A stretch of DNA of 33,227 nucleotides, taken from assembly GCA_018652265.1 (NCBI GenBank), contig JABICL010000018.1:1-33227 (forward strand). The letters run 5' to 3'. Made by a program: the position numbers and the translations under genes. Below the pieces are notes generated by a model. It searched no databases and was not told where the DNA came from. It worked only from the letters and a program-made list of their open reading frames with translations. Source of the stretch: Candidatus Peribacteria bacterium (GTDB taxonomy: Bacteria > Patescibacteriota > Gracilibacteria > Peribacterales > Peribacteraceae). Below are positions 1,439-33,227 of this stretch, piece after piece (position 1 is the first letter of the stretch; each line of letters opens with the position of its first letter).

Positions 1439-3310
1439 CTATCTCCCAATCTGCCCCAGCGCAGACCTAGCACTTGCGTTATTTGGATCTATTTCTAATA
1501 CTTGCTCAAATTCATATACCGCATCATCAATTCTCTTTTTGCCATAATAAAGAATTCCCAAATTAAGCCTAGCAGCGACGAAGTTTGGATGTATTTCGAT
1601 GGCACCTTCGTATGCACTTATTGCTTCAGAGTTTTTGCCAAGTTGAGAATAAGAAACACCTAGATTGTAATAAGCCTGAATAAACATGGAATTGGCTTCT
1701 ATAGCATTCAGATAATTCTCTACAGCTCTCTCATAATCCCCTCTCGAAGCATACAATGCACCTATATTTGAGTAAGCCTCTGCATAACGAGGATCGAGTT
1801 CTAGAGCACGATTATAATTATCTAATGCATTTCCAAAATCATTAGATGCCGCATATACAAGCCCAAGGCCAAAGTATGGCTCAGCATTCTCTGGATCTAA
1901 TTCCATAGCTTTTCTGTATTGCTCAAGCGCTTTAAGTGTATCTCCATTTTTTCTATACACAGCACCAAGGTTTCCATAAGTTTTTGGATGAGGTTTTATG
2001 GAAAGTGCTATCTCAAATTCAGCAATCGCTTTATCTAGATCATCTTGCCTTCTATAAACATTACCAATGTTATTGTGAGCTCTGTGTGACATGTTGGGAT
2101 AGCGCTCTATCACATTTGTGAACAAAGACTCTGTACTTGCCCAGACTCTAGACTGAAAGAATGATAGTGCCGCAAAAATACATATAACTATCAAGAATGA
2201 ACAATGAATAATTAACAATGAATAATTATGGAGTAACTTTTTCTTAAATTTAAATAGCAAAGCGCAGATTAGAATCAACACTCCAATCATTGGAATATAT
2301 GCATATCTATCTGATGCAAAATATAGATCTCCGTCTTTTGCAAAGTTTGTGAAGCTTGGAATTAGATTTATAAGAAAGAATAAGATAGAGAAAACAAATA
2401 ACTTATTTTTTCTGAAATAAATAAGCGAAGACATAAGTCCAATTACCAAAATTACTGGAACAAAGTAGATTGGATCGAAGATTGAAATACTATCCCCCGC
2501 CGGATACAAAACAGAAAGTCCTGTTGGAATAAATATTTTTGATATATAGAAAATTCCGCTTCTACAAGCCATAATTACGGTATCAGTAAATCCTATTCCT
2601 TCTATAACTTCTGCCTTACCAAAGATTGCAACTATTCCAAATATTATACTCAATGCAAAATAAGGAATTTTTTCTAGGATAACTCCTCTATCTATCTTTC
2701 TATCTTTTAAGTAATCAATTAGAAGTAATACCAAAGGTAGAGCTATTACTGAGACTTTTGAAAGTAACGAAAGAAGAAAACACAAGATCGACAATTTATT
2801 TACATACAGGCGGTGAGTAGTTTGTAGTGAGTAGTGAGTAGATTTTAAATAACTGACCAACGCACCAAGAAAGAAAAATGTCGCTAGTAAATCTTTCCTC
2901 GCGCTAGCCCACACCACTGCCTCTGCATTTAACGGATGAACAGCAAATAGAACTCCACAAAATAGTGCAGCAAATCTGTTTTTCAACAGAAAATATGCAA
3001 ACAAAAATACCAGAAGTGAATTAAGTGTATGAAGCAACAGATTTGTAACGTGATACATGAATGGATCCACTCCCCCAACCAAGTAATCAATCTGATATGA
3101 GATAAAAGTAAGAGGTATATAAAGTTCAGGATCATATGTAGAAAATGCAGCAGCAACGGAGCTAACCGACAAATTTCTAACAATAGGATTCTCGTATATA
3201 AGCAATCCATCATCCCATCGAACAAATTTATTGTTCAAAGATTGCGAATAAATCAAAAGATTTATCGCCAGGAAGAAAATTACTACGATTACTGCTCTTC
3301 TGTTTTTCAT
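1439..3310 (-). CDS. GT-C membrane glycosyltransferase with C-terminal TPRs (TMTC/O-mannosyltransferase-like)
   Basis: 623 residues. The N-terminal ~390 residues are polytopic, with about ten hydrophobic segments. The first outer loop carries the Asp-Asp motif typical of GT-C enzymes (WDD, 32-34). HPLNAEAV (125-132) and LLSKVSVIALPLVLLLIDY (182-200) match conserved blocks of TMTC/DUF1736 proteins. Residues ~400-620 are about six TPRs. Eukaryotic TMTC proteins O-mannosylate cadherin-type Ig domains, so a role in glycosylating exported Ig-like proteins encoded nearby is a reasonable inference. Two 7-bp repeat arrays lie inside the frame, at about residues 158-166 and 361-372, in predicted loop or TM-edge regions. 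No Shine-Dalgarno site. Confidence 0.8.
   Translation of the reverse strand: MKNRRAVIVVIFFLAINLLIYSQSLNNKFVRWDDGLLIYENPIVRNLSVSSVAAAFSTYDPELYIPLTFISYQIDYLVGGVDPFMYHVTNLLLHTLNSLLVFLFAYFLLKNRFAALFCGVLFAVHPLNAEAVVWASARKDLLATFFFLGALVSYLKSTHYSLQTTHRLYVNKLSILCFLLSLLSKVSVIALPLVLLLIDYLKDRKIDRGVILEKIPYFALSIIFGIVAIFGKAEVIEGIGFTDTVIMACRSGIFYISKIFIPTGLSVLYPAGDSISIFDPIYFVPVILVIGLMSSLIYFRKNKLFVFSILFFLINLIPSFTNFAKDGDLYFASDRYAYIPMIGVLILICALLFKFKKKLLHNYSLLIIHCSFLIVICIFAALSFFQSRVWASTESLFTNVIERYPNMSHRAHNNIGNVYRRQDDLDKAIAEFEIALSIKPHPKTYGNLGAVYRKNGDTLKALEQYRKAMELDPENAEPYFGLGLVYAASNDFGNALDNYNRALELDPRYAEAYSNIGALYASRGDYERAVENYLNAIEANSMFIQAYYNLGVSYSQLGKNSEAISAYEGAIEIHPNFVAARLNLGILYYGKKRIDDAVYEFEQVLEIDPNNASARSALGQIGR
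2195..2229. repeat. heptanucleotide array inside the GT-C gene
   Basis: Five consecutive 7-bp words of the YAATKAA family (GAATGAA, CAATGAA, TAATTAA and variants). The reverse complement of the array at 4796-4830 uses the same word family. Confidence 0.7.
2813..2840. repeat. heptanucleotide array (GTGAGTA) inside the GT-C gene
   Basis: Four consecutive 7-bp units, three GTGAGTA and one GTTTGTA, encoding part of a short loop after the fourth or so hydrophobic segment. Confidence 0.7.
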
Positions 3311-4795: not shown

Positions 4796-4830
4796 TTAAT
4801 TATTAATTGTTAATTATTAATTATTCATTT
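4796..4830. repeat. heptanucleotide array overlapping a stop codon
   Basis: Five in-phase 7-bp words (TTAATTA three times, TTAATTG, TTCATTT). It includes the TGA stop (4825-4827) of the 4825-5637 gene. Confidence 0.75.
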
Positions 4831-5637
4831 TTTTCGCAAAAATAGTGGCACCCCAAGCAAGCTAAACAACCCCACAAGACCCAGAGCAGGACCCGTAGCA
4901 GGCTGCCTGGTTACCATAGGAGAAACGCCACTTGGACGACTAGCTGCCATATGAGCTTGCTGTTGAGTTTCTCTGGCTATCTGTATAGGCATCTGATCCA
5001 GCGGAGAGAAAGATGGAACAAGTCCACTTCCTACAGTGAATCTATTTATCTTCAACATAGAAGGCCATACAGATTTAGCAGGAGCAACTTCTGTGACTGC
5101 CTGATTTAGATTTATAGTTGGAGCTGGTCCAGTATTCTGCGCTGGAACTACAGGAGGCTGATTTTGGATCACAGCAGGTTGAGATGGCTGCACATTTACA
5201 TGTGGCTCATTGGTTACCTGTGGTTTCACATTTGAATTTGCAGGAACAGGATCTACTTTTTTATCCGCTCCAGTTCCAGTATCAGCTTTATCTTCTCGAA
5301 TAATATCTCCTAGATTTGGAATAGGAGGTAGGTCATCCATATTTAATTCACTTTCTATTACAGCACCAGTTCCAGCATCTTGATCGGAATCATCGAAAGT
5401 TAGATTTGCAGTTATATAAGTAACACCCTGTGCAAATATAAGGCCAATTGCAATTATCCCAGTCATTCCTACTGCAAGATTATTTACATTCTTTCTCTTT
5501 ATCTTTACACGTTGTGGTTGCACAGATCCTTGCACCCCAGCATTTACAGACTTAGGTGACGTAACTTCATGCACGACTACATTCTCCTCTTCAGGAGAAT
5601 CATCTGTGCTTTGCCAGTCAGGATCTATATGTGTCAT
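4825..5637 (-). CDS. membrane-anchored proline-rich surface protein with QPATG sorting-like tail
   Basis: 270 residues. An acidic N-terminus and a basic patch (RVKIKRK) precede a hydrophobic segment (54-77). A Pro/Gln/Val-rich extracytoplasmic linker (~90-170) follows, then a short globular part. The C-terminus has PATG (246-249), about 16 hydrophobic residues and RKK, the layout of a sortase cell-wall sorting signal or a second anchor. The start overlaps the preceding stop by one base (TAATG), so it is the last gene of the five-gene operon. Ends in TGA within a 7-bp repeat array. Likely an envelope-spanning partner of the cohesin/dockerin proteins; exact role unknown. Confidence 0.7.
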   Translation of the reverse strand: MTHIDPDWQSTDDSPEEENVVVHEVTSPKSVNAGVQGSVQPQRVKIKRKNVNNLAVGMTGIIAIGLIFAQGVTYITANLTFDDSDQDAGTGAVIESELNMDDLPPIPNLGDIIREDKADTGTGADKKVDPVPANSNVKPQVTNEPHVNVQPSQPAVIQNQPPVVPAQNTGPAPTINLNQAVTEVAPAKSVWPSMLKINRFTVGSGLVPSFSPLDQMPIQIARETQQQAHMAASRPSGVSPMVTRQPATGPALGLVGLFSLLGVPLFLRKK

Positions 5638-6782
5638 TACTTAGATGAACGAATAAGTACGATGCTAAAGCCAGCAGAAATAATTGCAGCGATCAGTAAG
5701 ATATGTGCAGGAAAGCCAGTGCCACCAGCTATCTTTCCACCATCAATCACAGATCCTGTAATATCAGATCCTCCTGTGTTTGATCCGCCAGTATTTCCAC
5801 TTGTTCCAAAAGGTGCAGTAGAGCTACTTGGATCCCCTACTTCTACCATTACTTCATAACTAAATTCTGTTTCTCTTTCTCTAGAGTCAAAAGCAGTTAC
5901 AGCAAAATAATAATCCTGACCTATAGGAAGGTCGCCAACAGTTACACCTTGGATTCCACCTCCCGGCATCTTGTGAACTGTTCTTCTGTGTACATATCTT
6001 CCAGATACTGTTCCATAATATAAGTTATATCCCTGTACGCGAGCATCACTTAGAGAGTTCCATATCACGTATACATCCGACTCATTAGTAGATACTCGAA
6101 TTCCAGAAGGCTGTAATCTGGTAAAGCCATCATCAGTATTGTTAGCAGGAGGCGGCGTAACAGTAGGGCCAGGATTTATTTTGCAATCACCAAAACAAAG
6201 TTGTAAATCTCTTGGTCGTACTTTAAGCACATTTACCGTTCTTCCTGCTTCTACTACCAAAGCTTTTGTTTTTCCTTCTTGTCCAAGAAGAGAAAATTCA
6301 TAGAAAGAAACCTTCGACTCACTATCTTCTGCAAGAACTTCAAATGTTACGCGAGCAAAATTAAGTTGTGAGCTATTTACTCCTCCGCTTACATTACTTG
6401 CTCCTATTTTTACTAACCCTTGTATTTCATCGAATGTTTTTTCTCCAGGTGCAACCAAAGGAAATTCATCACCCACAGAAACATCGACTCCTTTAAGCAA
6501 CATAGGATCATAAGAAATCCAACTCTGAATAGATTGGATAGGCTGAGCAGATGGATTATTTAGAATAATATCAATGTCGAGTTTGTCTCCGACTTTTAAT
6601 CCATATGTACTTAGCGTATTTGCATCCTTCTGAATAAATTCAGAACATCCAGTCGCCTTCTCGCAATGTGGACGAAATCTTACGCTTACATCATTAGTTG
6701 CAGCATGCACACTGCTTACATTTATCAAGCAGATAGCTACTGGAATAATTACAAGCCACAATTTGGATAAGTTTTTAATCAT
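5637..6782 (-). CDS. secreted cohesin-like + FnIII protein with C-terminal membrane anchor
   Basis: 381 residues from the ATG at 6782, which overlaps the upstream stop as ATGA; longer readings run back into the upstream gene. Signal peptide 1-27 (VHA|ATN), cohesin-like beta-sandwich about 30-190, Cys pair 196/200, FnIII domain about 224-316 (including GYNLYYGTVSGRY and YYFAVTAFDSR), Gly/Ser/Thr linker 317-355, TM 358-377, tail RSSK. The block PIQSIQSWISYDP matches PIQSARSWVRFDP of the preceding lipoprotein, so the two cohesin-like domains are tandem duplicates. It likely displays a cohesin on the cell surface for dockerin partners encoded upstream. Confidence 0.8.
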   Translation of the reverse strand: MIKNLSKLWLVIIPVAICLINVSSVHAATNDVSVRFRPHCEKATGCSEFIQKDANTLSTYGLKVGDKLDIDIILNNPSAQPIQSIQSWISYDPMLLKGVDVSVGDEFPLVAPGEKTFDEIQGLVKIGASNVSGGVNSSQLNFARVTFEVLAEDSESKVSFYEFSLLGQEGKTKALVVEAGRTVNVLKVRPRDLQLCFGDCKINPGPTVTPPPANNTDDGFTRLQPSGIRVSTNESDVYVIWNSLSDARVQGYNLYYGTVSGRYVHRRTVHKMPGGGIQGVTVGDLPIGQDYYFAVTAFDSRERETEFSYEVMVEVGDPSSSTAPFGTSGNTGGSNTGGSDITGSVIDGGKIAGGTGFPAHILLIAAIISAGFSIVLIRSSK

Positions 6783-7369
6783 AGTGTTATATGTGATGGT
6801 ACTTGCAATATATTCATAGGAATATTCTCGTTTAGTATCACAACGGCAGTATGACCATCGCCTTTTGCTTTCCAATCATAAAAAGTAAGAACTGTGTCAC
6901 TATCTCCTAATTTTTCATAATCAAAAGACATAAGCATAATTTCTGTATCAGTTATAGATTCTGGAGATGCTCCTCCGAACTTTATAAATCCACGATTTAT
7001 ATCTATCCCCTGTTCATCTGGTGCAAACAGAGAGAATCTTGTATCTCTTAGAACCAAATTACTTACAGTAATTGCTTCTGGATCAAATCTTACCCAAGAT
7101 CTAGCAGATTGAATTGGGCTTGATTGTGGATTTTTTACAACAACGTCTACAGTTCCACTTTTTTCATCAACAGAATTAACTACCAATTTTATATCAGCGG
7201 TTAAAACTTCTGCAGATGCACTGTGCTTAAGGCCATGTTTTTGCACTTTACTTACACCATCCGAAGATTCACAAGATGAAAGTATTACTGCAATCATAGA
7301 AAACACAATTAAGAATTTCAGAATTCCGCTTCCTTGTGATGTGCCAGTGCTTGATAAAGTATATTTCAT
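6779..7369 (-). CDS. lipoprotein with a single cohesin-like domain
   Basis: 196 residues. Hydrophobic stretch 17-31 ends in a lipobox-like LSSC with Cys33, so probable lipid anchoring after signal peptidase II cleavage, although the n-region is long. Residues about 56-190 form a cohesin-like domain: VDVVVKNPQSSPIQSARSWV, then a FDP turn, then a GFIKFGG strand and an acidic loop before the last strands. Six bases separate it from the preceding dockerin gene, and it overlaps the next by ATGA, indicating translational coupling and TGA as stop. Anchors dockerin-bearing proteins by analogy with cellulosome-type surface attachment. Confidence 0.75.
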   Translation of the reverse strand: MKYTLSSTGTSQGSGILKFLIVFSMIAVILSSCESSDGVSKVQKHGLKHSASAEVLTADIKLVVNSVDEKSGTVDVVVKNPQSSPIQSARSWVRFDPEAITVSNLVLRDTRFSLFAPDEQGIDINRGFIKFGGASPESITDTEIMLMSFDYEKLGDSDTVLTFYDWKAKGDGHTAVVILNENIPMNILQVPSHITL

Positions 7370-7375
7370 TATTTT

Positions 7376-10300
7376 CTAGAAATTAAAACTGGGAAGCTCT
7401 CCACCCATACCATTATTATTTGATCCTATGCCTGGACCAGTAAATGGGCTTTGATTGCCGCCATCATCTGGCGCACTAATAGCAGATGCATCTGGACATA
7501 AAAGAGAAACATCTTCGAGCCTATATTCAGTTCCATAAACAGAAGATAGAAGTGCGAAATCAGAGAAATTCACACGCCCATCCCTATTTAAATCTGCAAT
7601 TGGAAGAACTAAACATCCATTTTCATTATCATTAAACCTTGGGAAAGAAACTATAAAATTAAATTCAGCAGCTCCTCCCGGTGCTTTTATTCTTCCTGGT
7701 GCCATTACTCCAGGAATCTTTATTCTCATATTATCCCCTTCTCTAAGTCTATCCAAAGTAAGCCTTAGTGTACGTGCATCACTTTGTAATTGAGATTTTA
7801 TTATTCTATTTGATGCACCAGATACCAAAGATTCAAGCTGTGCTCTGGCAACGATTACATCCGGATGAACACTACTTGGAATAACCTGATTTTCAAATAT
7901 AACATCAATGTGTTCTGAATCTATTACATTCACATTTTTTATATTTGGAACTGCCCTTCCTCTTTCATAAGCAGTAAATACAAGCGAGCCACCACGGTCT
8001 GCACTAAATCTATTACCATATATATCCGTAAGAGGATTGCCATCTGATACTACTGAGAATGTATAAGTTTCACCTCCAATAAGAGGATCTGATTCTAGAT
8101 ATAGAATCCTACTAGTTGTATCCCAAGATACTCTATCTAATTCTGTATCATTAAATGCATCCAAGGTTGGTCTTATTGTAAATTGATCACCTCCACGTTC
8201 TATGGACGATGTATTTATAGGATTACTTACAACAAGTTCAAATTCATCTTCATCCACAGGAACAATCATTACAAGCTCAGGAGCAATACGAAGTTTATCT
8301 GATACTCCTTCATCACCTATATATATAGGTATGCTTTCATGAGATGTATGTCCTTTTTCATCTATAGCTGTTAAATCAATTATATATGGCTCTGTGCTTG
8401 CAAGTGTAGTTGGAGGAATTGATATATCAGTAAGCACAAACCATCTGTAACCTATGTCCTCTGGAACACTACGTTCCATACAAGCAATTGCCATAGAAGA
8501 TCCGCAAAGTAGCTCTATATCATTTGCTCCTTTTTTAGATGATCCACCAGCACGTCCTATGGAACCCATATTTGCCATAACTGTCATCACATCATCATCT
8601 GCATCACTTACCAAAACATGAATTTCACCTTTTCCTTCACCATCATTTGCAAATACACGTGGTACCTGGAATGAATTGTAAACTCTTATAGAAGGAGCAA
8701 CTCCATCATCTGCACCACCTTTTTCTACTCTAAGCCTTGCGCCACCATGAACTGTATTACCAGTATCATCTACTGCAGTTAGCTTTATGTTATACACACC
8801 AGTTTGTAAATCTTCTGGAATAGTAATTTTCTTTGATTTGAATGTATTCTGTCTTGCAACTGCATCAGAAGGATAATTGATCACGCTATCTAGTTCTTCG
8901 AATTCAAGACGAATATCCGTAAAGTCTGCCATTACAGTAAGCTTGTCATCTCCTACTCCATTTTCATCACCAATTTCTACAAAGAGCTGAGTATCACTTC
9001 CAGGAGAAACAACGTCTGGTACAAATCTGTTATTCAAAAATTCTGGAGCATCTCCTCCCAAATCTCCAATTGTTACTCTGATTCTGTCGTTTACTAGATT
9101 TCCTTGTTTGTCTTCTATTTGTACTCCAATATCATATCCTGCACTCTTCACTGTTGTAGGAATTTTTATCTTCTTGGAAGTAAATATGCCCTTAGTTCCT
9201 TCTTTGGTTGAACTGCTACTTTTATGCGACATAAATTCATATGGAAGATCCAGAGGAATAAGATTCAATCTCACAACCTCTATATCCTCTATACCATCTG
9301 CATCTTCTACCTCTATATTGAAGAATATTTCTGACTCTTCGTTTGCAGGCAATTTATTTGGCACAGCACTTTTAGTAACTATTACAGGCAATCCTCCACT
9401 ATGAACCACAGCGCTTACAGTTACCGGCAATGTTTCTACTGCGCTATTTCCAGAACTATCAAATGCCTGAAGCCTAAGTGAATAAATGCCAGGAGCTAAA
9501 TCATGTGGCATATCGTACTCACCTTTATATGTAACTGGCTGAACACTTCCAGCAACAGGATCTATCATGCTCTCTAGTTCTATTACATCACCTCCAACAT
9601 TTACCAAATCTATAGCTACCTGACTTATGGTATCTGATCCATCTAAATCAGAAACTCCTACATAGAAAGTTGTCTTACCTCCAAGTGGCACTATTTCTGG
9701 GAAAGTTTCTAAGCGACCAGAGAATATAGGTGCATTTCCACTAACTACTCCATCACCATCACCACCTGTTGAACTTACAGAAAGATTGTATCCGGTTTGT
9801 GTTTGATTTCCATCATTATCTCTAGCGATGAACTCTATCTCATAGATGCCATCTGCAATCTGATTAGATAATGTGAAATTGTTCAAAACATATGGAACTG
9901 TAGTAAGAGCTGCACCACCAGAAGGCAGGCTTACTGCTGGAGAAAGCTCTTCTATTCCACCTCCTATAGAGGTAAGTCTTGCTTGTACAGACTGCATACT
10001 ATCTACTCCTTCGTTATCAGTAATATCTATGTAAAAACTTACATTATCTCCAGGAGCAGGAACCAAAGGCGTAGTTTCTATGTCACCAATAGATGGAGTC
10101 TCTCCTTGAACCACTATTGTTCTAAGCTCTAGAGTTTCAACTTCTTGATCACGTTTTCCTGCACGATTCTCCACCCTTATAGTTACAGGATAATCAGTAT
10201 TTGTTTGTAATGAATTAGAAAGATTTCCAGTTACTTTAAACCAAACAATAGATACTCCTCCTGGGCCAACTGCAAGCTCTCCTATACAAGCAGAATCTGC

Positions 10301-11338
10301 TCTACAGTCTGCATCTGTCATATTTATATCTGTCTTACCAAATCCTATATTTGGCGATCCTCCGATACTTGTAAAATCTACAGATCCAACAATAGGTTCA
10401 CCCGCTCCTAATGGATTAAATATAGGTATCCATAAATCTACAGTTGTAGGTCTTTCCGAAGAACTATATCTCATTGGATTTGGAGATAAGAACATTAATT
10501 CTTCCAAAATATCTACAGGTGCAGATGCTCCAGGATTTTCAAATACTGCAATCTTTTCGTCTGCATATAAGCTTCCAACGGAGACCGTGTAAGATCCAGA
10601 AAGTGTCTGCTCTGGAATTTGAGCAATAATCTCTGTAGGACTTGTAGAAATAACATTTATAGGACGATTATTTACTAGAACTGTAGATCCAGAAGAAAAT
10701 CCTTTTCCTCTAATTACCAAAGTATCATTTCTAACAAGTGGGAATATTCCAGGGCTTATATCAGATATAAAAGTAACAAACTGAAGCTCTGCTGCATTAT
10801 TGTCCGTAACAATTTCTATATTTCCATCATGCGACTGAGTCATTTTTGCATTGTCTACAATGTAGTGTGCTCCAAGTATCTGCAGAGAAATATCGTCGTT
10901 AACTGTATTTGCAGGATGTGATGCTAGATCTAATTCAAACTCCAAGAGACTTACACCGTGATTTATGGATCTTGGATTACCAGCCAATGCAACATTTACA
11001 ACTCCAGGTACAGGATAATGAACTGACATTTCAAAATTCTGCAAAGCTGCTGCACGATTTACTTTTAGTATCTCTGCCTTTGCAGGATCTACCATAAACG
11101 TCAGGAATATTCCTTCAAAGTTTGTTAGATTTTCTCCTGCCTGAAGTAACACACTTCCCCTCTCGTTTGGACGAGCTTGGTATCCTTGGCTTATAAATAT
11201 TCCAGTATTTGGCACTACTGTACTTGAATCTATTTGAAAAACAGCAGAACGAAGTTCTGGTGAAATATTTTTAGATACCAGAGCGCTACTCACTGCGAGT
11301 ATTACTATTGCCGGCAGTATCATGAGAAAGCGCTTCAT
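7376..11338 (-). CDS. giant multi-domain surface protein: cohesin-like, IPT/TIG, Ig-like repeats, single-hand dockerin
   Basis: 1320 residues. Signal peptide about 1-22. Cohesin-like module about 30-180. IPT/TIG domain about 188-268 (ISPGIFPLVRNDTLVIRGKG). About five diverged Ig-like modules of roughly 100 residues from ~405, each with a SPGSDTQLFVEIGDENGV-type strand and an acidic turn. Two Big_5-like domains from ~960 to 1235. A dockerin-type EF loop DLNRDGRVNFSDF at 1249-1261, then a disordered Gly/Asn tail. Only one of the two usual dockerin loops is present. It starts directly after the preceding TAG stop with no gap. It probably works as a non-catalytic scaffold or adhesin outside the cell. 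Confidence 0.85.
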   Translation of the reverse strand: MKRFLMILPAIVILAVSSALVSKNISPELRSAVFQIDSSTVVPNTGIFISQGYQARPNERGSVLLQAGENLTNFEGIFLTFMVDPAKAEILKVNRAAALQNFEMSVHYPVPGVVNVALAGNPRSINHGVSLLEFELDLASHPANTVNDDISLQILGAHYIVDNAKMTQSHDGNIEIVTDNNAAELQFVTFISDISPGIFPLVRNDTLVIRGKGFSSGSTVLVNNRPINVISTSPTEIIAQIPEQTLSGSYTVSVGSLYADEKIAVFENPGASAPVDILEELMFLSPNPMRYSSSERPTTVDLWIPIFNPLGAGEPIVGSVDFTSIGGSPNIGFGKTDINMTDADCRADSACIGELAVGPGGVSIVWFKVTGNLSNSLQTNTDYPVTIRVENRAGKRDQEVETLELRTIVVQGETPSIGDIETTPLVPAPGDNVSFYIDITDNEGVDSMQSVQARLTSIGGGIEELSPAVSLPSGGAALTTVPYVLNNFTLSNQIADGIYEIEFIARDNDGNQTQTGYNLSVSSTGGDGDGVVSGNAPIFSGRLETFPEIVPLGGKTTFYVGVSDLDGSDTISQVAIDLVNVGGDVIELESMIDPVAGSVQPVTYKGEYDMPHDLAPGIYSLRLQAFDSSGNSAVETLPVTVSAVVHSGGLPVIVTKSAVPNKLPANEESEIFFNIEVEDADGIEDIEVVRLNLIPLDLPYEFMSHKSSSSTKEGTKGIFTSKKIKIPTTVKSAGYDIGVQIEDKQGNLVNDRIRVTIGDLGGDAPEFLNNRFVPDVVSPGSDTQLFVEIGDENGVGDDKLTVMADFTDIRLEFEELDSVINYPSDAVARQNTFKSKKITIPEDLQTGVYNIKLTAVDDTGNTVHGGARLRVEKGGADDGVAPSIRVYNSFQVPRVFANDGEGKGEIHVLVSDADDDVMTVMANMGSIGRAGGSSKKGANDIELLCGSSMAIACMERSVPEDIGYRWFVLTDISIPPTTLASTEPYIIDLTAIDEKGHTSHESIPIYIGDEGVSDKLRIAPELVMIVPVDEDEFELVVSNPINTSSIERGGDQFTIRPTLDAFNDTELDRVSWDTTSRILYLESDPLIGGETYTFSVVSDGNPLTDIYGNRFSADRGGSLVFTAYERGRAVPNIKNVNVIDSEHIDVIFENQVIPSSVHPDVIVARAQLESLVSGASNRIIKSQLQSDARTLRLTLDRLREGDNMRIKIPGVMAPGRIKAPGGAAEFNFIVSFPRFNDNENGCLVLPIADLNRDGRVNFSDFALLSSVYGTEYRLEDVSLLCPDASAISAPDDGGNQSPFTGPGIGSNNNGMGGELPSFNF

Positions 11339-13036
11339 CTATTGTGTAATTGAATGAAGAACAAAAAGCACATCGGAGAAAGTAACTTGATTATCTCCAT
11401 CTGTATCACGTAGCAAGTGCTGCTGTTGAGTAGACATTCTTCCTGTACTTAATCTAAGTGCAAATACAGCATCTTCTATTGTTAAACGACCATCTGTATT
11501 GAAATCACCTATAAGAGCAGATTCTCCAGCATCTAGAAGTACAGCTTTAGCTGTGTTTCCATATGAATCACTCAGTGTGAATAGGAATGTAAATGGTCCA
11601 TCATAGAAATCAACATATGAAGATATCGGTATAGAACACTGCGCCATTTCTTCTCTGGAAACAGATCCATCAAAAGCTAGATTACAAGTTGAATCTTCTA
11701 TAACTGTACGATTTGTAGGAAGGTTATTTGGATCTGTAAAAGCTCCATCGAGGAGCTCTATTTTTACACTTTGCAAATGTCCAACACTTACATTGTGCTG
11801 AACCAGAATATTAAACTCAGTAGCAAATCCAGGCGCAACTAGCGAAGCTGCATCCTGCCCAATTGGGGCAACTGCAAGAATATCAAACTGATCACTAAAA
11901 GATCTTATATTTGCAATTGGAGAATTACATGTAATTGCAGTAGCTTCTCCACTTACATCTTTGAATCCATGCGCATTTGGATGAACTTTTAGAATTCCAG
12001 TTGTAGCTCTAAGTGGAACACGAACTCTTATTCTTGTATCTGTCCAATTAACTCCAGGGAATACCTGAACTATTTCTGGATCACCATCAATCGTTGGGAA
12101 ACTTACATATCCACCAAAAGCTCCAAAATCAGTACCGTTTATCGTAATGGTATCTAAGCCAGCATCATAAGATGTAATTTGTCCAAAGTTATTCACTATA
12201 CATTGCTGATTATTTCTACATGCAGCGAACTGAGAACAAGAAGCAAGACCATCTACAACCTCTTCACACATTCCTGAAACATAATTTCCATCTGGACATT
12301 GAACTGGATCACACGACTCTACAAGTGACTGCCATGAACCATTACATTCAAAAGTAACTATATCTCCAGCGCTATTACAAGTAGGAGTTGGTTGATTTGT
12401 TCCAGTGCAATCATCTCTTTCGTTTAATGTAATCATTACATCATAAACAGCAGGATAAGCATCTTCCTGTTTGCCTAAACACCATGTGCCACCAGATGCC
12501 ACATTGAACGATGTGCCATCTTCACAGCTTGCCTCATCGTATCTTATGTGAACAAGATCTGACTCTATGCGTATGCCTGTAATGTATTCTATGTAATCTG
12601 GATTTACGATTATGTCGTACTGCTTATCTGCCTGATTACCTGTCACAGGTTCTTCTCCTACTGGAATATTGAAGACAGTGCATCTACCAGTTTGCGAAGT
12701 GAATCTACATCTGTCCACTGGACTTGCTGGAATTATTTCTCCAGAGTAAATATTCTGAAGAATAAACATTGCTGTGTTTGTAGCAGAAAATTCACTTAGA
12801 ACTATAGGCTGAGCTGAGCTGCCATCTACAGGCTGATACTGCAAAGTTACATTCAGATTTGTTGTTTGCGATATTTGTGCCTCTGTAACAGAGATAGGCT
12901 CCATGCTAGTCTTCAAACCCAAAACAAATGAGAGTGTTCCACAGAGCATGAACACCATTACCCTAAATTTATTTCCAGAAAGCCGTCTGTTTATTTTGTT
13001 TTTTTGTTTTGGCATTACTTTAATTATTCCTCTCAT
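11339..13036 (-). CDS. secreted Cys-rich, IPT/TIG-like protein with a complete type I dockerin
   Basis: 565 residues from the ATG at 13036; an ATG at 13015 (MPKQKN) is the alternative and is favoured if TATAAT at 13035-13040 is the -10. The basic N-terminus and hydrophobic segment (about 27-42) form a signal peptide or anchor. A beta-rich module (50-190), a Cys-rich segment (about 195-275, with spacings suggesting disulfides), an IPT/TIG-like domain about 280-370 and a second beta module follow. The C-terminal dockerin has two Ca-binding loops, DFNTDGRLTIED (511-522) and DTDGDNQVTFSD (544-555). First gene of the operon; it likely docks on the cohesin-like domains encoded downstream. Confidence 0.8.
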   Translation of the reverse strand: MRGIIKVMPKQKNKINRRLSGNKFRVMVFMLCGTLSFVLGLKTSMEPISVTEAQISQTTNLNVTLQYQPVDGSSAQPIVLSEFSATNTAMFILQNIYSGEIIPASPVDRCRFTSQTGRCTVFNIPVGEEPVTGNQADKQYDIIVNPDYIEYITGIRIESDLVHIRYDEASCEDGTSFNVASGGTWCLGKQEDAYPAVYDVMITLNERDDCTGTNQPTPTCNSAGDIVTFECNGSWQSLVESCDPVQCPDGNYVSGMCEEVVDGLASCSQFAACRNNQQCIVNNFGQITSYDAGLDTITINGTDFGAFGGYVSFPTIDGDPEIVQVFPGVNWTDTRIRVRVPLRATTGILKVHPNAHGFKDVSGEATAITCNSPIANIRSFSDQFDILAVAPIGQDAASLVAPGFATEFNILVQHNVSVGHLQSVKIELLDGAFTDPNNLPTNRTVIEDSTCNLAFDGSVSREEMAQCSIPISSYVDFYDGPFTFLFTLSDSYGNTAKAVLLDAGESALIGDFNTDGRLTIEDAVFALRLSTGRMSTQQQHLLRDTDGDNQVTFSDVLFVLHSITQ

Positions 13037-23884: not shown

Positions 23885-24202
23885 ATGCTCAGAACACTAT
23901 TCATTATTGCACTACTTACTTCCTGCTCCCCAAAGCAGGAGATAGACGAAAAACGTATAACTCAACACGTAAGAGATAACATAAATAGCTTCATAGAAAT
24001 GGAGCCAGTTCTAGGAGCAGATTCTTTTTATGCATATGAAATTGATTTTTATCCAGAAAATAAACTTATCGCATATTTCGAAGATGGACACATAGGAGGA
24101 TACCTACTCGCAGAATATAACTTACAAAAAGGGCAGATAGTCATACTGCCTATAAAAGAAGTCCCTATAGAAAGACTGGATGAATTGATGAATGAATTGT
24201 AA
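23885..24202 (+). CDS. small lipoprotein, unknown
   Basis: 105 residues from the ATG at 23885. Lipobox LLTSC within MLRTLFIIALLTSCSPKQ gives a lipidated Cys14. The mature ~90 residues are acidic and alpha/beta (DSFYAYEIDFYPENKLIAYF). No family recognised. Its last 11 bases overlap the start of the VCBS/SLH gene in another frame, so the two are probably co-transcribed and translationally coupled. Likely an envelope accessory of the surface protein that follows. Confidence 0.7.
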   Translation: MLRTLFIIALLTSCSPKQEIDEKRITQHVRDNINSFIEMEPVLGADSFYAYEIDFYPENKLIAYFEDGHIGGYLLAEYNLQKGQIVILPIKEVPIERLDELMNEL

Positions 24203-27071
24203 AATTGGCACCAAATTGCAATTTAAATCATTTAGCAAAGGCATTCTGAATTTGAGCATATTATCTGTGATAGCAATATCTCCGATTCTTGCACCAGTGT
24301 CGGAAGCTGCAGCTCTTACTTTTACAGAATATCCAGTAGATAATACTGTCCTTCGTATAAGAACAATCTATGCAATAGATATAGATGACGATGGAGACAC
24401 AGACATCATGGCTGCAAATATGATTTACGACGATATTTATTGGTTTAGAAATGACGGATCAGAAAACTTCACAAAGGTAACCATAGACAGCAACTTCGTT
24501 GATCCAGAATTTATATTCCCAGTAGATCTAGATGAAGATGGAGATAAAGACATAGTAGTTTCAGCTGCAAATAGTGGAGACAAGATCGTATGGTACGACA
24601 ATGATGGATCTGAAAACTTTACAGAGAGATCTATAGACTCTTCTGCGCCAGGAGCTGCAGGAATTACTGTTATAGACATGGATAGCGACGGTGATCTAGA
24701 CGTTGTCGGAGGTATATATAGTGAATCTTACATAAAATGGTACGACAATAATGGCTCAGAAAGTTTTACAGAAAAATCAGTTTATTATTCAAACAATGCT
24801 GGATTTTGGGATGTCGACGCTGGAGACATGGACAAAGATAACGATATAGACATAGTCAGTTGCAAGGGTATATACAACGACGTCGTATGGTACGAAAATA
24901 ATGGATCAGAAAGTTTTACAGAACACATAATAGATGGTTCTCATAGATCCACTGATTCGGTAGATATTGTAGATTTAGATGGAGATGGAGAAATGGACGT
25001 CGTAGCAGGATCCAGATATTTAGATGGTGTTGCCTGGTACAAGAATGATGGATCAGAAAGTTTTACAGAATATACAATAGATGATTCCTTATCTTTCGTA
25101 GATGATGTACACACCGCAGATTTAGATGGCGATGGAGATAATGATGTTCTTGTAACTTCATACGACGATAATGATGTCCTCTGGTACGAAAATGATGGAT
25201 CAGAGAGATTTACAAAGAGAACGATAGATTCGAACTTTGGATCACCAAAACAAATAACTGTAGCAGATATAGATGGAGATGGAGATTTGGATGTTGCAGC
25301 TGGATCAGTTGCATCGGATGATCTTTCTTGGTGGGAAGCAGCAGGAGATTCTACTCCTCCATCTGTTTCTACGCTGTCCCCTACCGACGAATTAACCGGA
25401 GTATCACAAACTGCAAATCTAGTAATTGCATTCAATGAAAACATAGGGAAAACAGGAACAGGAACTGTAACTATAAAAAAGACATCCAATGATTCAATCG
25501 TAGAAACAATCAGCGTAACAGGATCACTAGTAACTGGATCGGGTGGAACAAGTATCACAATAAATCCATCAGTAACACTAGATGAAAATACTTCTTACTA
25601 TGTGCAAATTCATCAAAATGCATTCCCCGATGAATCCGGAAACTTCTATGCGGGAATCTCAGATACTTCTACATGGAACTTCACTACTGTTGACCTCACA
25701 GATCCAGTTATTTCATCTGAATCCCCTGCCGATGAAGCAACAGATGTATCCACAGGAAGCAGTATTACTTGGACCACTAATGAAGCAGCATCCAGCCAAG
25801 TTCAATATGGTTTTACAAATGCATTCGGATCTTTAACTACTCTTGCAGATACCAGTCCACGAGTCACAAGCCATAGCGTATCTTTGGGGGATTTAGTTGA
25901 ATGTTCAACTTATTACTATCGTGCAATATCCGTAGACTCATCTGAAAATACAACTACAGGCTCTACACTGCAATTTACAACAACTGGATGTACAAATGAT
26001 GCAACAGTAGAGACTCAAAGTGGCAGCGCTGTTACAACTTCTGGAGGCGGGACTGTAAGTGTGATAACCAATAGCTCTGGTGCAGAATTAACAATCCCCA
26101 CAAGCTTTTCAGACAACGATGCAACATTTCAGATAAAAAGACTAAATAAAACTACTACTCTTGCTCTTATCTCCAATCCATCAGGACTCACAGAAGTTGG
26201 AAATCATATATATGATTTTCGTGCAATAAGTGGGGCAACACTTGTTACATCTTTCGATGAAGATATCACAGTAACTATGCAATACACAGATACTCAGATT
26301 TCATCTTTAACTGAATCTTCTTTGTGGATTTATAGACATGATGGCTCTTCGTGGAACGCGCTTAGCTCATGCACAGTTGATCAGGATACAAATACTGTTA
26401 CATGTAGCACTCAAAGCTTTTCTACATTTGGACTCTTTGGAAGTACTCCATCTTCAAGTAGCGAAACCTCAACGAGCTCTGTAAGTAATGGTGGCAGGAG
26501 AGGAAGCATTGCATCTATGCAAAAACTTATAGATACAGCATTTGAAAAGTTTTTGAAAAAAAGGAAAGGGTACATAAAGGATGGAAAGGAGTTAGAGGAA
26601 AAAGAGGAAGATGAAAAAGAAAACGAAGTAATCGAAGAAGCAAATACTAACTTCGAATTTGTAGATGTTCCATCAAACTCATGGTTTACAAAATATGTTT
26701 ACAATCTTGCAAATAGAAAAATTATAGAAGGATATGCAACCGGAGAGTTTAAGCCAGAAAAAACCGTAACAATCGCAGAGGCACTTAAGATGCTTATAAA
26801 AGCAAAAGATATGCAAGCTATAGAATCTCATCTCACACTAAACAAATCTGCTAGAAACACGTGGGCTTCCCCATATGTTGCCTGCATAGAAGATATCGAT
26901 TTATCTGCACTAGGCCCATCTACAAATGTTCATAGCCCTATTACTCGGAAAGAAGTAATAAATCTCGCAAGCGCTATATTAAAAGAGAAAAATCTAAAAA
27001 TGGTCGATAGACCAAATGAATATATAAACAGAGCAGAGATTTCTAAGCTGATTAGTTTAATTATTGAATAA
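24192..27071 (+). CDS. VCBS/FG-GAP repeat surface protein with C-terminal SLH domains
   Basis: 959 residues. Signal peptide about 1-40 (SEAA|A). Seven VCBS/FG-GAP-like repeats of ~47 residues (about 55-375), each with a Ca-binding loop of the DIDGDGDLDV kind and a VWYENNGSESFTE strand. A Big_5-like domain (about 385-500, STLSPTDELTGVSQTANLVI), an FnIII-like domain (500-600), further beta domains, a highly charged linker (~780-820), then SLH repeats: one clear (823-870, FVDVPSNSWFTKYVYNLANR) and two weaker to the end. SLH domains bind cell-wall polysaccharide, so this protein is probably part of, or attached to, an S-layer-like coat. Confidence 0.85.
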   Translation: MNCKIGTKLQFKSFSKGILNLSILSVIAISPILAPVSEAAALTFTEYPVDNTVLRIRTIYAIDIDDDGDTDIMAANMIYDDIYWFRNDGSENFTKVTIDSNFVDPEFIFPVDLDEDGDKDIVVSAANSGDKIVWYDNDGSENFTERSIDSSAPGAAGITVIDMDSDGDLDVVGGIYSESYIKWYDNNGSESFTEKSVYYSNNAGFWDVDAGDMDKDNDIDIVSCKGIYNDVVWYENNGSESFTEHIIDGSHRSTDSVDIVDLDGDGEMDVVAGSRYLDGVAWYKNDGSESFTEYTIDDSLSFVDDVHTADLDGDGDNDVLVTSYDDNDVLWYENDGSERFTKRTIDSNFGSPKQITVADIDGDGDLDVAAGSVASDDLSWWEAAGDSTPPSVSTLSPTDELTGVSQTANLVIAFNENIGKTGTGTVTIKKTSNDSIVETISVTGSLVTGSGGTSITINPSVTLDENTSYYVQIHQNAFPDESGNFYAGISDTSTWNFTTVDLTDPVISSESPADEATDVSTGSSITWTTNEAASSQVQYGFTNAFGSLTTLADTSPRVTSHSVSLGDLVECSTYYYRAISVDSSENTTTGSTLQFTTTGCTNDATVETQSGSAVTTSGGGTVSVITNSSGAELTIPTSFSDNDATFQIKRLNKTTTLALISNPSGLTEVGNHIYDFRAISGATLVTSFDEDITVTMQYTDTQISSLTESSLWIYRHDGSSWNALSSCTVDQDTNTVTCSTQSFSTFGLFGSTPSSSSETSTSSVSNGGRRGSIASMQKLIDTAFEKFLKKRKGYIKDGKELEEKEEDEKENEVIEEANTNFEFVDVPSNSWFTKYVYNLANRKIIEGYATGEFKPEKTVTIAEALKMLIKAKDMQAIESHLTLNKSARNTWASPYVACIEDIDLSALGPSTNVHSPITRKEVINLASAILKEKNLKMVDRPNEYINRAEISKLISLIIE

Positions 27072-32030: not shown

Positions 32031-33227
32031 CTATAACAACCACCTCAGAAACCACGGCACATAAACCCCCGTCTGTGGCATGTTCTCTAAATTGTAGTTT
32101 TGATTCACCCCGTTTGTAATTGAATCTGGATCAATAGATAGTTCGTCATCAAAAATATCTGGGATACCATCATTGTCATCATCTTCATCAAAGATATCTG
32201 GAATACCGTCTCCATCTGTGTCTTTGTTATCTGGATCTAATGAATCTGGGATACCGTCTCCATCGTCATCGTCATCTAAATAATCTGGAATACCGTCATT
32301 GTCATCATCGTCGTCAAAGATATCTGAAATTCCATCTCCGTCTGTATCTCTACGATCAGGATCTTCAAAATCTAGTATCCCATCTCCATCTGCATCTAAG
32401 TCATCTATATCTAATATTCCATCGTTATCGTCATCATTATCGAATAGATCTGGAATACCGTCTCCATCTGAATCTTTGCGATCGTAATCTATGTAATCAG
32501 GAATTCCATCTCCGTCTGCATCATTATCAAAAATATCTAATATTCCATCATTGTCATCATCGTCATCCAGGTAATCTGGAATGCCGTCCCCGTCTTTATC
32601 ATCATCCAAATAATCTGGAATACCATCATCATCGTCGTCATTATCGAATAAATCTGGAACTCCATCAAAGTCTGAATCTATATTGAGTAGTAGATCTAGA
32701 ATGTCACCTGAAATATTTGGAAAATCTCCTAAATCAAAATCAGGGATATTTAATCCTAGATTTCCATCACCTATATTTACTGGGAATAAATTGGAGCCGT
32801 CTGCATCATCTCCATTTTTGTAAGCAAGCATGTTAGATATGTAATCTGCAAACGGGCTATCTCCATTTGGATCATTTGGATCTGCACCAGTAATTCCATT
32901 CCCAAAGCCAGGCAAATTAATTCCATTACCTAGATCTCCAATGGAACCTCTTATGCCAGAACCTATATCTCTTACAGAATCTCTCAAGCCACTTCCGATT
33001 CCACCTAGGTTCAATCCATTTGAACTTATGCCGCCCAAGCCAAGATTCCCAAGTCCTCCACCGGAGGGAATACCCCTATAGCCAGAAGGCAAACTTCTAG
33101 ATCCTCCACCTCCGCCAGAAGAAGAGCTACCACCTCCGCCAAAACTTAATCCACCTCCTCCACATGGCCTTTTGTAATCAATTACATTTATAGGCTGAGT
33201 AAGACAGTAGCCTATCGGATCTCGAAC
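32031..33227 (-). CDS. thrombospondin-type-3 calcium-binding surface protein, 5' end outside window
   Basis: The frame stays open to the window edge, so the start is missing; 398 codons are visible. In order: a segment with two Cys (about 33162-33206), a Gly/Ser linker (33093-33161), Gly-rich low-complexity sequence, then from about 32690 to 32120 an array of ~12 TSP3-type Ca-binding repeats (DGDGIPDYLDDDDDNDGILD kind). The end has MPQTG followed by only VYVPWFLRWLL. TSP3 arrays form rigid Ca-loaded stalks in secreted adhesins. MPQTG fits a sortase-type motif, but the hydrophobic tail is short and lacks a clear basic end. Plus-strand His-rich readings across the array are shadows. Confidence 0.85.
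   Translation of the reverse strand, partial: VRDPIGYCLTQPINVIDYKRPCGGGGLSFGGGGSSSSGGGGGSRSLPSGYRGIPSGGGLGNLGLGGISSNGLNLGGIGSGLRDSVRDIGSGIRGSIGDLGNGINLPGFGNGITGADPNDPNGDSPFADYISNMLAYKNGDDADGSNLFPVNIGDGNLGLNIPDFDLGDFPNISGDILDLLLNIDSDFDGVPDLFDNDDDDDGIPDYLDDDKDGDGIPDYLDDDDDNDGILDIFDNDADGDGIPDYIDYDRKDSDGDGIPDLFDNDDDNDGILDIDDLDADGDGILDFEDPDRRDTDGDGISDIFDDDDDNDGIPDYLDDDDDGDGIPDSLDPDNKDTDGDGIPDIFDEDDDNDGIPDIFDDELSIDPDSITNGVNQNYNLENMPQTGVYVPWFLRWLL

Follow-up and report, generated by a model that had tools for sequence, protein, structure and literature searches.

The window, that is, the whole stretch of 33,227 nucleotides analyzed here, is contig C21 of a 1.07-Mb genome from the lineage Ca. Peribacteria (Patescibacteria). 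Between positions 4825 and 13036, its minus strand carries five genes in the order DocA, Giant, CohLP, CohFn and ProTM, divergent from holA (Table 1). The ORF list and translations place DocA and Giant directly against each other (0 bp), separate Giant from CohLP by 6 bp and give CohFn and ProTM an overlap of 1 bp. The overlap of CohLP and CohFn is 4 bp with the CohFn ATG at position 6782, where the signal peptide begins, and 97 bp with the listed TTG as the start instead. ORFs, strand and order of these contiguous genes are as the first-pass annotation had described them. Cohesins and dockerins are the snap-together modules of cellulose-digesting complexes. The operon encodes three cohesins (in CohFn, CohLP and Giant) and two dockerins (a full one in DocA and a one-loop version in Giant), and the proteins that contain them bear export or membrane signals.

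Table 1. Genes of the operon and the modules recognized in their products
Feature	Position	Strand	Description
DocA, 565 aa	11339..13036	-	Hydrophobic segment near the N-terminus (residues 23-41), middle region without an assigned domain, two-loop dockerin at the C-terminus
DocA dockerin	11342..11518	-	Two canonical Ca loops, DFNTDGRLTIED and DTDGDNQVTFSD
Giant, 1320 aa	7376..11338	-	N-terminal hydrophobic segment, cohesin, TIG, Ig-like modules, Big_5, one-loop dockerin, ~50-residue tail
Giant N-terminal cohesin, residues about 44-166	10841..11209	-	Model, Foldseek, ortholog profile
Giant IPT/TIG, residues 190-254	10577..10771	-	Pfam TIG 1e-7, over cut-off
Giant one-loop dockerin, from residue 1249	7529..7594	-	DLNRDGRVNFSDFALLSSVYG; matches second half of Dockerin_1
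CohLP, 196 aa	6779..7369	-	Lipoprotein signal (ILSSC) and one cohesin
CohFn	5637..6782	-	Signal peptide, cohesin, FnIII, Gly-rich linker, C-terminal TM
CohFn cohesin	6192..6605	-	Pfam 3.1e-8; Z 13.6 to ScaC cohesin 4uyq
CohFn FnIII	5799..6125	-	Pfam 2.7e-4, sub-threshold; GYNLYYGTVSGRYVHRR motif conserved in relatives
ProTM, 270 aa	4825..5637	-	N-terminal DPDWQSTDD motif, TM (within 51-79), Pro-rich region, QPATG-TM-RKK tail
ProTM QPATG sorting-like motif	4891..4905	-	[TS]G-TM-basic tail recurs across class

CohFn was called a membrane-anchored cohesin-FnIII protein in the first-pass annotation, and this description holds: the cohesin is recognized both by Pfam and in the predicted structure (pLDDT 83), and the FnIII domain remains below the Pfam threshold. 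The best Foldseek match of the model is 2w1n, the cohesin-FnIII double module of Clostridium perfringens GH84C. The order of the modules is identical in the two proteins, but the clostridial module lies inside a glycoside hydrolase, whereas CohFn is a stand-alone membrane protein. When the FnIII motif is used as a DNA pattern, it is found at 26 places in GTDB genomes, 25 of them in records named Peribacteria, Peribacteraceae, Peribacterales, Peribacter or Peregrinibacteria and one in a record named "bacterium".

The N-terminal cohesin-like module of Giant is confirmed by its model and by an ortholog profile. Pfam finds no cohesin at this N-terminus in the window protein, and it matches one Giant ortholog at 8.8e-5. 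A profile of nine orthologs searched against the PDB, on the other hand, finds almost exclusively cohesins (best 5.7e-6). The AlphaFold model (pLDDT 74, pTM 0.70) has cohesins as its top Foldseek matches and superimposes on CaCohA2 (6kge) with a Z score of 13.5 and 2.2 Å over 117 residues. The cohesin folds of both Giant and CohFn were thus recovered in the structural comparison. The Pfam match of CohLP is weak (0.058), and a single-sequence search of the PDB returned no cohesin, just unrelated weak matches. Against a cohesin profile trained on CohFn proteins, with CohLP itself outside the training set, it matches at 3e-24. By homology, then, CohLP is a cohesin, and its earlier designation as a cohesin lipoprotein stands.

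DocA carries the paired calcium loops of a full dockerin, as had been proposed. The isolated region matches Pfam Dockerin_1 at 0.0041, below the cut-off, and EF-hand families match it as well; Dockerin_1 matches 16 of the 20 members of the dockerin alignment (best 8e-8). The family profile finds dockerins among the solved structures, the best being ScaH at 3.2e-6, intermixed with other EF-hand proteins. Through its dockerin sequence DocA is akin to dockerin proteins of about 110 residues in the relatives (range 104-146 aa), whose N-terminal consensus, SFxxGIxTAGDV, resembles by eye the DocA counterpart SFVLGLKTSMEP in its SFxxGI motif. Because the N-termini are alike, DocA looks like the small dockerin gene of the relatives with an insert of about 450 residues. 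A search of viral contigs found no relatives of DocA.

Giant has only one loop. This one-loop dockerin is kept near the C-terminus of five orthologs (L043, L045, L041, L047 and L114), of which L047, from genome G036, has two loops instead of one. A single-repeat dockerin has been reported in C. clariflavum. A lone one-loop dockerin may not fold by itself.

The last protein, ProTM, had been described as a Pro-rich envelope-spanning protein. In a corrected reading, ProTM is better taken as an N-terminal membrane segment followed by a Pro-rich spacer and an LPxTG-like sorting tail. Its QPATG-TM-RKK tail combines a sorting-like motif with a TM and basic residues, the first residue of the motif differing from canonical LPxTG. 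The window genome encodes one sortase (PF04203 2.8e-19; TIGR01076 over cut-off), and a DLPETGA protein lies about 5 kb from it. A cupredoxin-like domain is matched, below threshold, in five of the six Peribacteraceae ProTM orthologs scanned; it was not found by Pfam in the window ProTM, and the aligned cupredoxin-like sequences of the relatives show no evident copper ligands of the usual Cys-His kind. An NxxTVG-type motif recurs class-wide in the variable Pro-rich part of ProTM and its relatives (INRFTVGSG in the window, TNPYTVGS or VNTHTG elsewhere). Another motif, [LFI]x[AG]x[LIV], recurs after the first hydrophobic segment in DocA, Giant, ProTM and relatives. Overall it is only mildly enriched (39 observed, 23.9 expected); it is perhaps a processing site.

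Elsewhere in the window, a TSP_3-repeat protein (32031-33227) ends in another sorting-like tail, MPQTGVYVPWFLRWLL, and a 959-aa protein (24192-27071) contains FG-GAP repeats, Big_5 and an SLH domain. A 623-aa protein (1439-3310) with about ten hydrophobic segments, TPRs and an FVRWDD motif, homologs of which are found near the operon in several relatives, is possibly a TMTC-like glycosyltransferase.

The following observations indicate that the operon is a closed cohesin-dockerin set. The Pfam cohesin and dockerin models find their matches in the operon, plus one weak match each elsewhere in the window genome. On contig C1, the weak cohesin match belongs to a protein with a DLPETGA tail, which is not matched by the cohesin profile; on contig C44, the weak dockerin match is likewise not matched by the dockerin profile. 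Pfam and profile searches of the 1.07-Mb genome thus give no further credible cohesin or dockerin beyond the operon. Pfam recognizes no enzyme domain in the operon and no glycoside hydrolase among the window genes scanned. The first-pass reading, a self-contained cohesin-dockerin operon with no glycoside hydrolase in sight, agrees with these results.

The operon shares with the cellulosomes of Clostridia the cohesin fold, type-I-like dockerin loops and receptors that anchor to the cell surface. It differs from them in that each window protein has one cohesin, where a scaffoldin has several, in that no dockerin-bearing glycoside hydrolase or other enzyme was found, the operon having no enzyme domain and the genome no other credible dockerin, and in that no carbohydrate-binding module was found in the operon. 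A cellulosome reading is rejected, since neither enzymes nor a multi-cohesin scaffoldin were found.

Cohesin-dockerin systems outside cellulosomes have been described from archaea and from other bacteria, and the window genome, which has both modules and lacks cellulosomal enzymes, probably belongs with them. According to work cited in PMC9012536, cohesins and dockerins of archaea bind each other with no degradation of cellulose involved. The archaeal cohesin 2xdh gives a Z score of 12.2 with the Giant cohesin model. The archaeal and ANME systems resemble the present one in having docking modules without cellulose degradation; the scaffoldin-like proteins of ANME, however, have up to five cohesins (PMC9012536), whereas the present operon is compact and conserved, lies in a reduced bacterial genome and includes a one-loop dockerin.

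Matches to CohFn, some of them FnIII-only, are present in 48 of 59 genomes, counting that of the window. In other Peribacteraceae, a dockerin gene recognized by the dockerin profile lies directly upstream of CohFn in 29 of 30 loci, mostly at a distance of 50 bp or less or overlapping (the largest overlaps, at L070 and L077, are probably due to over-long ORF starts). This pair is usually followed by ProTM and lies beside holA. The gene order is therefore found again in related genomes, and other families of the class also have the five-gene form. Relatives of Giant were found in G043, G054, G045, G056, G036, G049, G058 and G046, and within the Peribacteraceae Giant occurs in the window only. 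G043, G054 and the code-25 genome G045 have the expanded form, as do G056 and G036, in which no separate DocA was found adjoining Giant. In G049, two dockerin genes, Giant and CohLP share one contig and CohFn is on another, and in G058 the set is spread over several contigs. Among the resolved genomes, eight have Giant together with CohLP, and the other Peribacteraceae searched have neither; for G046, which has a relative of Giant, the CohLP status is not resolvable.

In a sample of 380 genomes of the phylum, full-length CohFn is confined to this class, and matches elsewhere are FnIII-only or small and cohesin-only. The latter include L104-L111 of other Patescibacteria classes, mostly of 216-273 aa, which have no dockerin neighbours within the stretches fetched. 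In the CohFn tree, the window sequence adjoins a clade of 30 other Peribacteraceae sequences (97/95 for the clade, 85/56 for its join with the window). This position fits an ancestral five-gene operon that was later reduced. The window lies basally in the Peribacteraceae and may keep the ancestral arrangement; we infer that the class started out with the five-gene form and that most Peribacteraceae later reduced it to DocA-CohFn-ProTM. Alternatively, the additional genes may have been gained in the lineage of the window.

By combining these observations, it is possible to describe how the products might work together. The operon rather likely encodes a non-enzymatic surface complex joined by cohesin-dockerin docking. 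Self-assembly through predicted docking is the best of the readings considered. CohFn, held by its C-terminal TM, and CohLP, held by its lipid, would be the cohesin receptors of the membrane. DocA would dock chiefly to CohFn and the C-terminal half-dockerin of Giant chiefly to CohLP, main pairs that are suggested by the co-occurrence of the genes. The N-terminal cohesin of Giant would offer an additional site, letting the assembly extend, and ProTM would be a sortase-anchored partner of the complex. The pairing may be looser than this, as in G037 a protein with a C-terminal one-loop dockerin adjoins a CohFn relative. Evolutionary distances of the dockerins and CohFn correlate when neighbouring genes are controlled for (partial r 0.23-0.34, permutation p 0.01-0.03), but the dockerin distances correlate equally well with the FnIII part of CohFn, so that the correlation is uninformative on the cohesin face. 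The enzyme-free modules and the conservation of the core across relatives suggest that the product is probably a coat made up of Ig, TIG and FnIII modules, with a structural or adhesive role.

It is possible, but rather unlikely, that the receptors point away from the cell and capture dockerin proteins of a second cell, whether of the same species or not, so that the operon would attach cell to cell instead of building an assembly on a single cell. The N-terminal hydrophobic segments of DocA and Giant may stay uncleaved, which would imply docking in cis or between cells rather than recruitment, and membrane segments at this end suit pairing in trans, as do the Ig, TIG and FnIII modules. Similar roles have been raised by the authors of the ANME study (PMC9012536). 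In the cultured, host-dependent Patescibacterium Southlakia epibionticum, an epibiont, the dockerin protein SEML1_0315 is essential (PMC10633639). However, the two partners are conserved side by side in one genome, which cis assembly fits at least equally, and there is no evidence of a host.

There is a small chance that docking has been lost and that the cohesins and dockerins are kept as beta-sandwich and EF-hand spacers of adhesins. The high divergence of the sequences, including a Giant cohesin that Pfam misses, and the presence in G019 of CohFn with no detectable dockerin would fit such a loss. The calcium-loop residues are nevertheless retained, the Giant loop is strongly conserved among orthologs, and dockerin genes are repeatedly paired with cohesin genes, as in the dockerin-then-cohesin pairs at separate loci of G043 (L117, L118) and G008 (L122).

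Docking alone might also build a surface filament or lattice if Giant polymerized head to tail, N-terminal cohesin to C-terminal half-dockerin, or if two half-dockerins paired into one dockerin, which is doubtful. It is very improbable that the operon is a reduced cellulosome whose dockerins recruit secreted enzymes unrecognized here, as the cohesins are single, the window genome has no other credible dockerin and none of ten sampled proteins of relatives, taken at dockerin or cohesin matches, has an enzyme family (they have Dockerin, EF-hand, DUF4215, Ig-like, TSP_3, CBM96 or Cohesin families), even though a CBM96 protein of G008 with a dockerin-like C-terminus adjoins a cohesin gene and the G035 dockerin proteins L128 and L129 show by eye a protease-like TGDSGD motif.

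The genome paper on Peribacteria describes large Cys-rich surface proteins, S-layer proteins and a sortase and does not mention cohesins or dockerins (PMC4736985). The Cys-rich extracellular proteins of Ca. Peribacter belong to the same lineage, and in the relatives dockerins occur on Cys-rich DUF4215 proteins. We found no paper on a cohesin in Peribacteria in a literature consisting mostly of papers free of subscription. In the present operon, cohesin and dockerin modules are conserved together, free of enzymes, in a lineage that is uncultured and has reduced genomes. Its variants run in a natural series, from three genes up to five, and the one-loop dockerin of Giant would test the minimum that a dockerin needs. 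The operon thus gives concrete targets for how Peribacteria build or use their surface.
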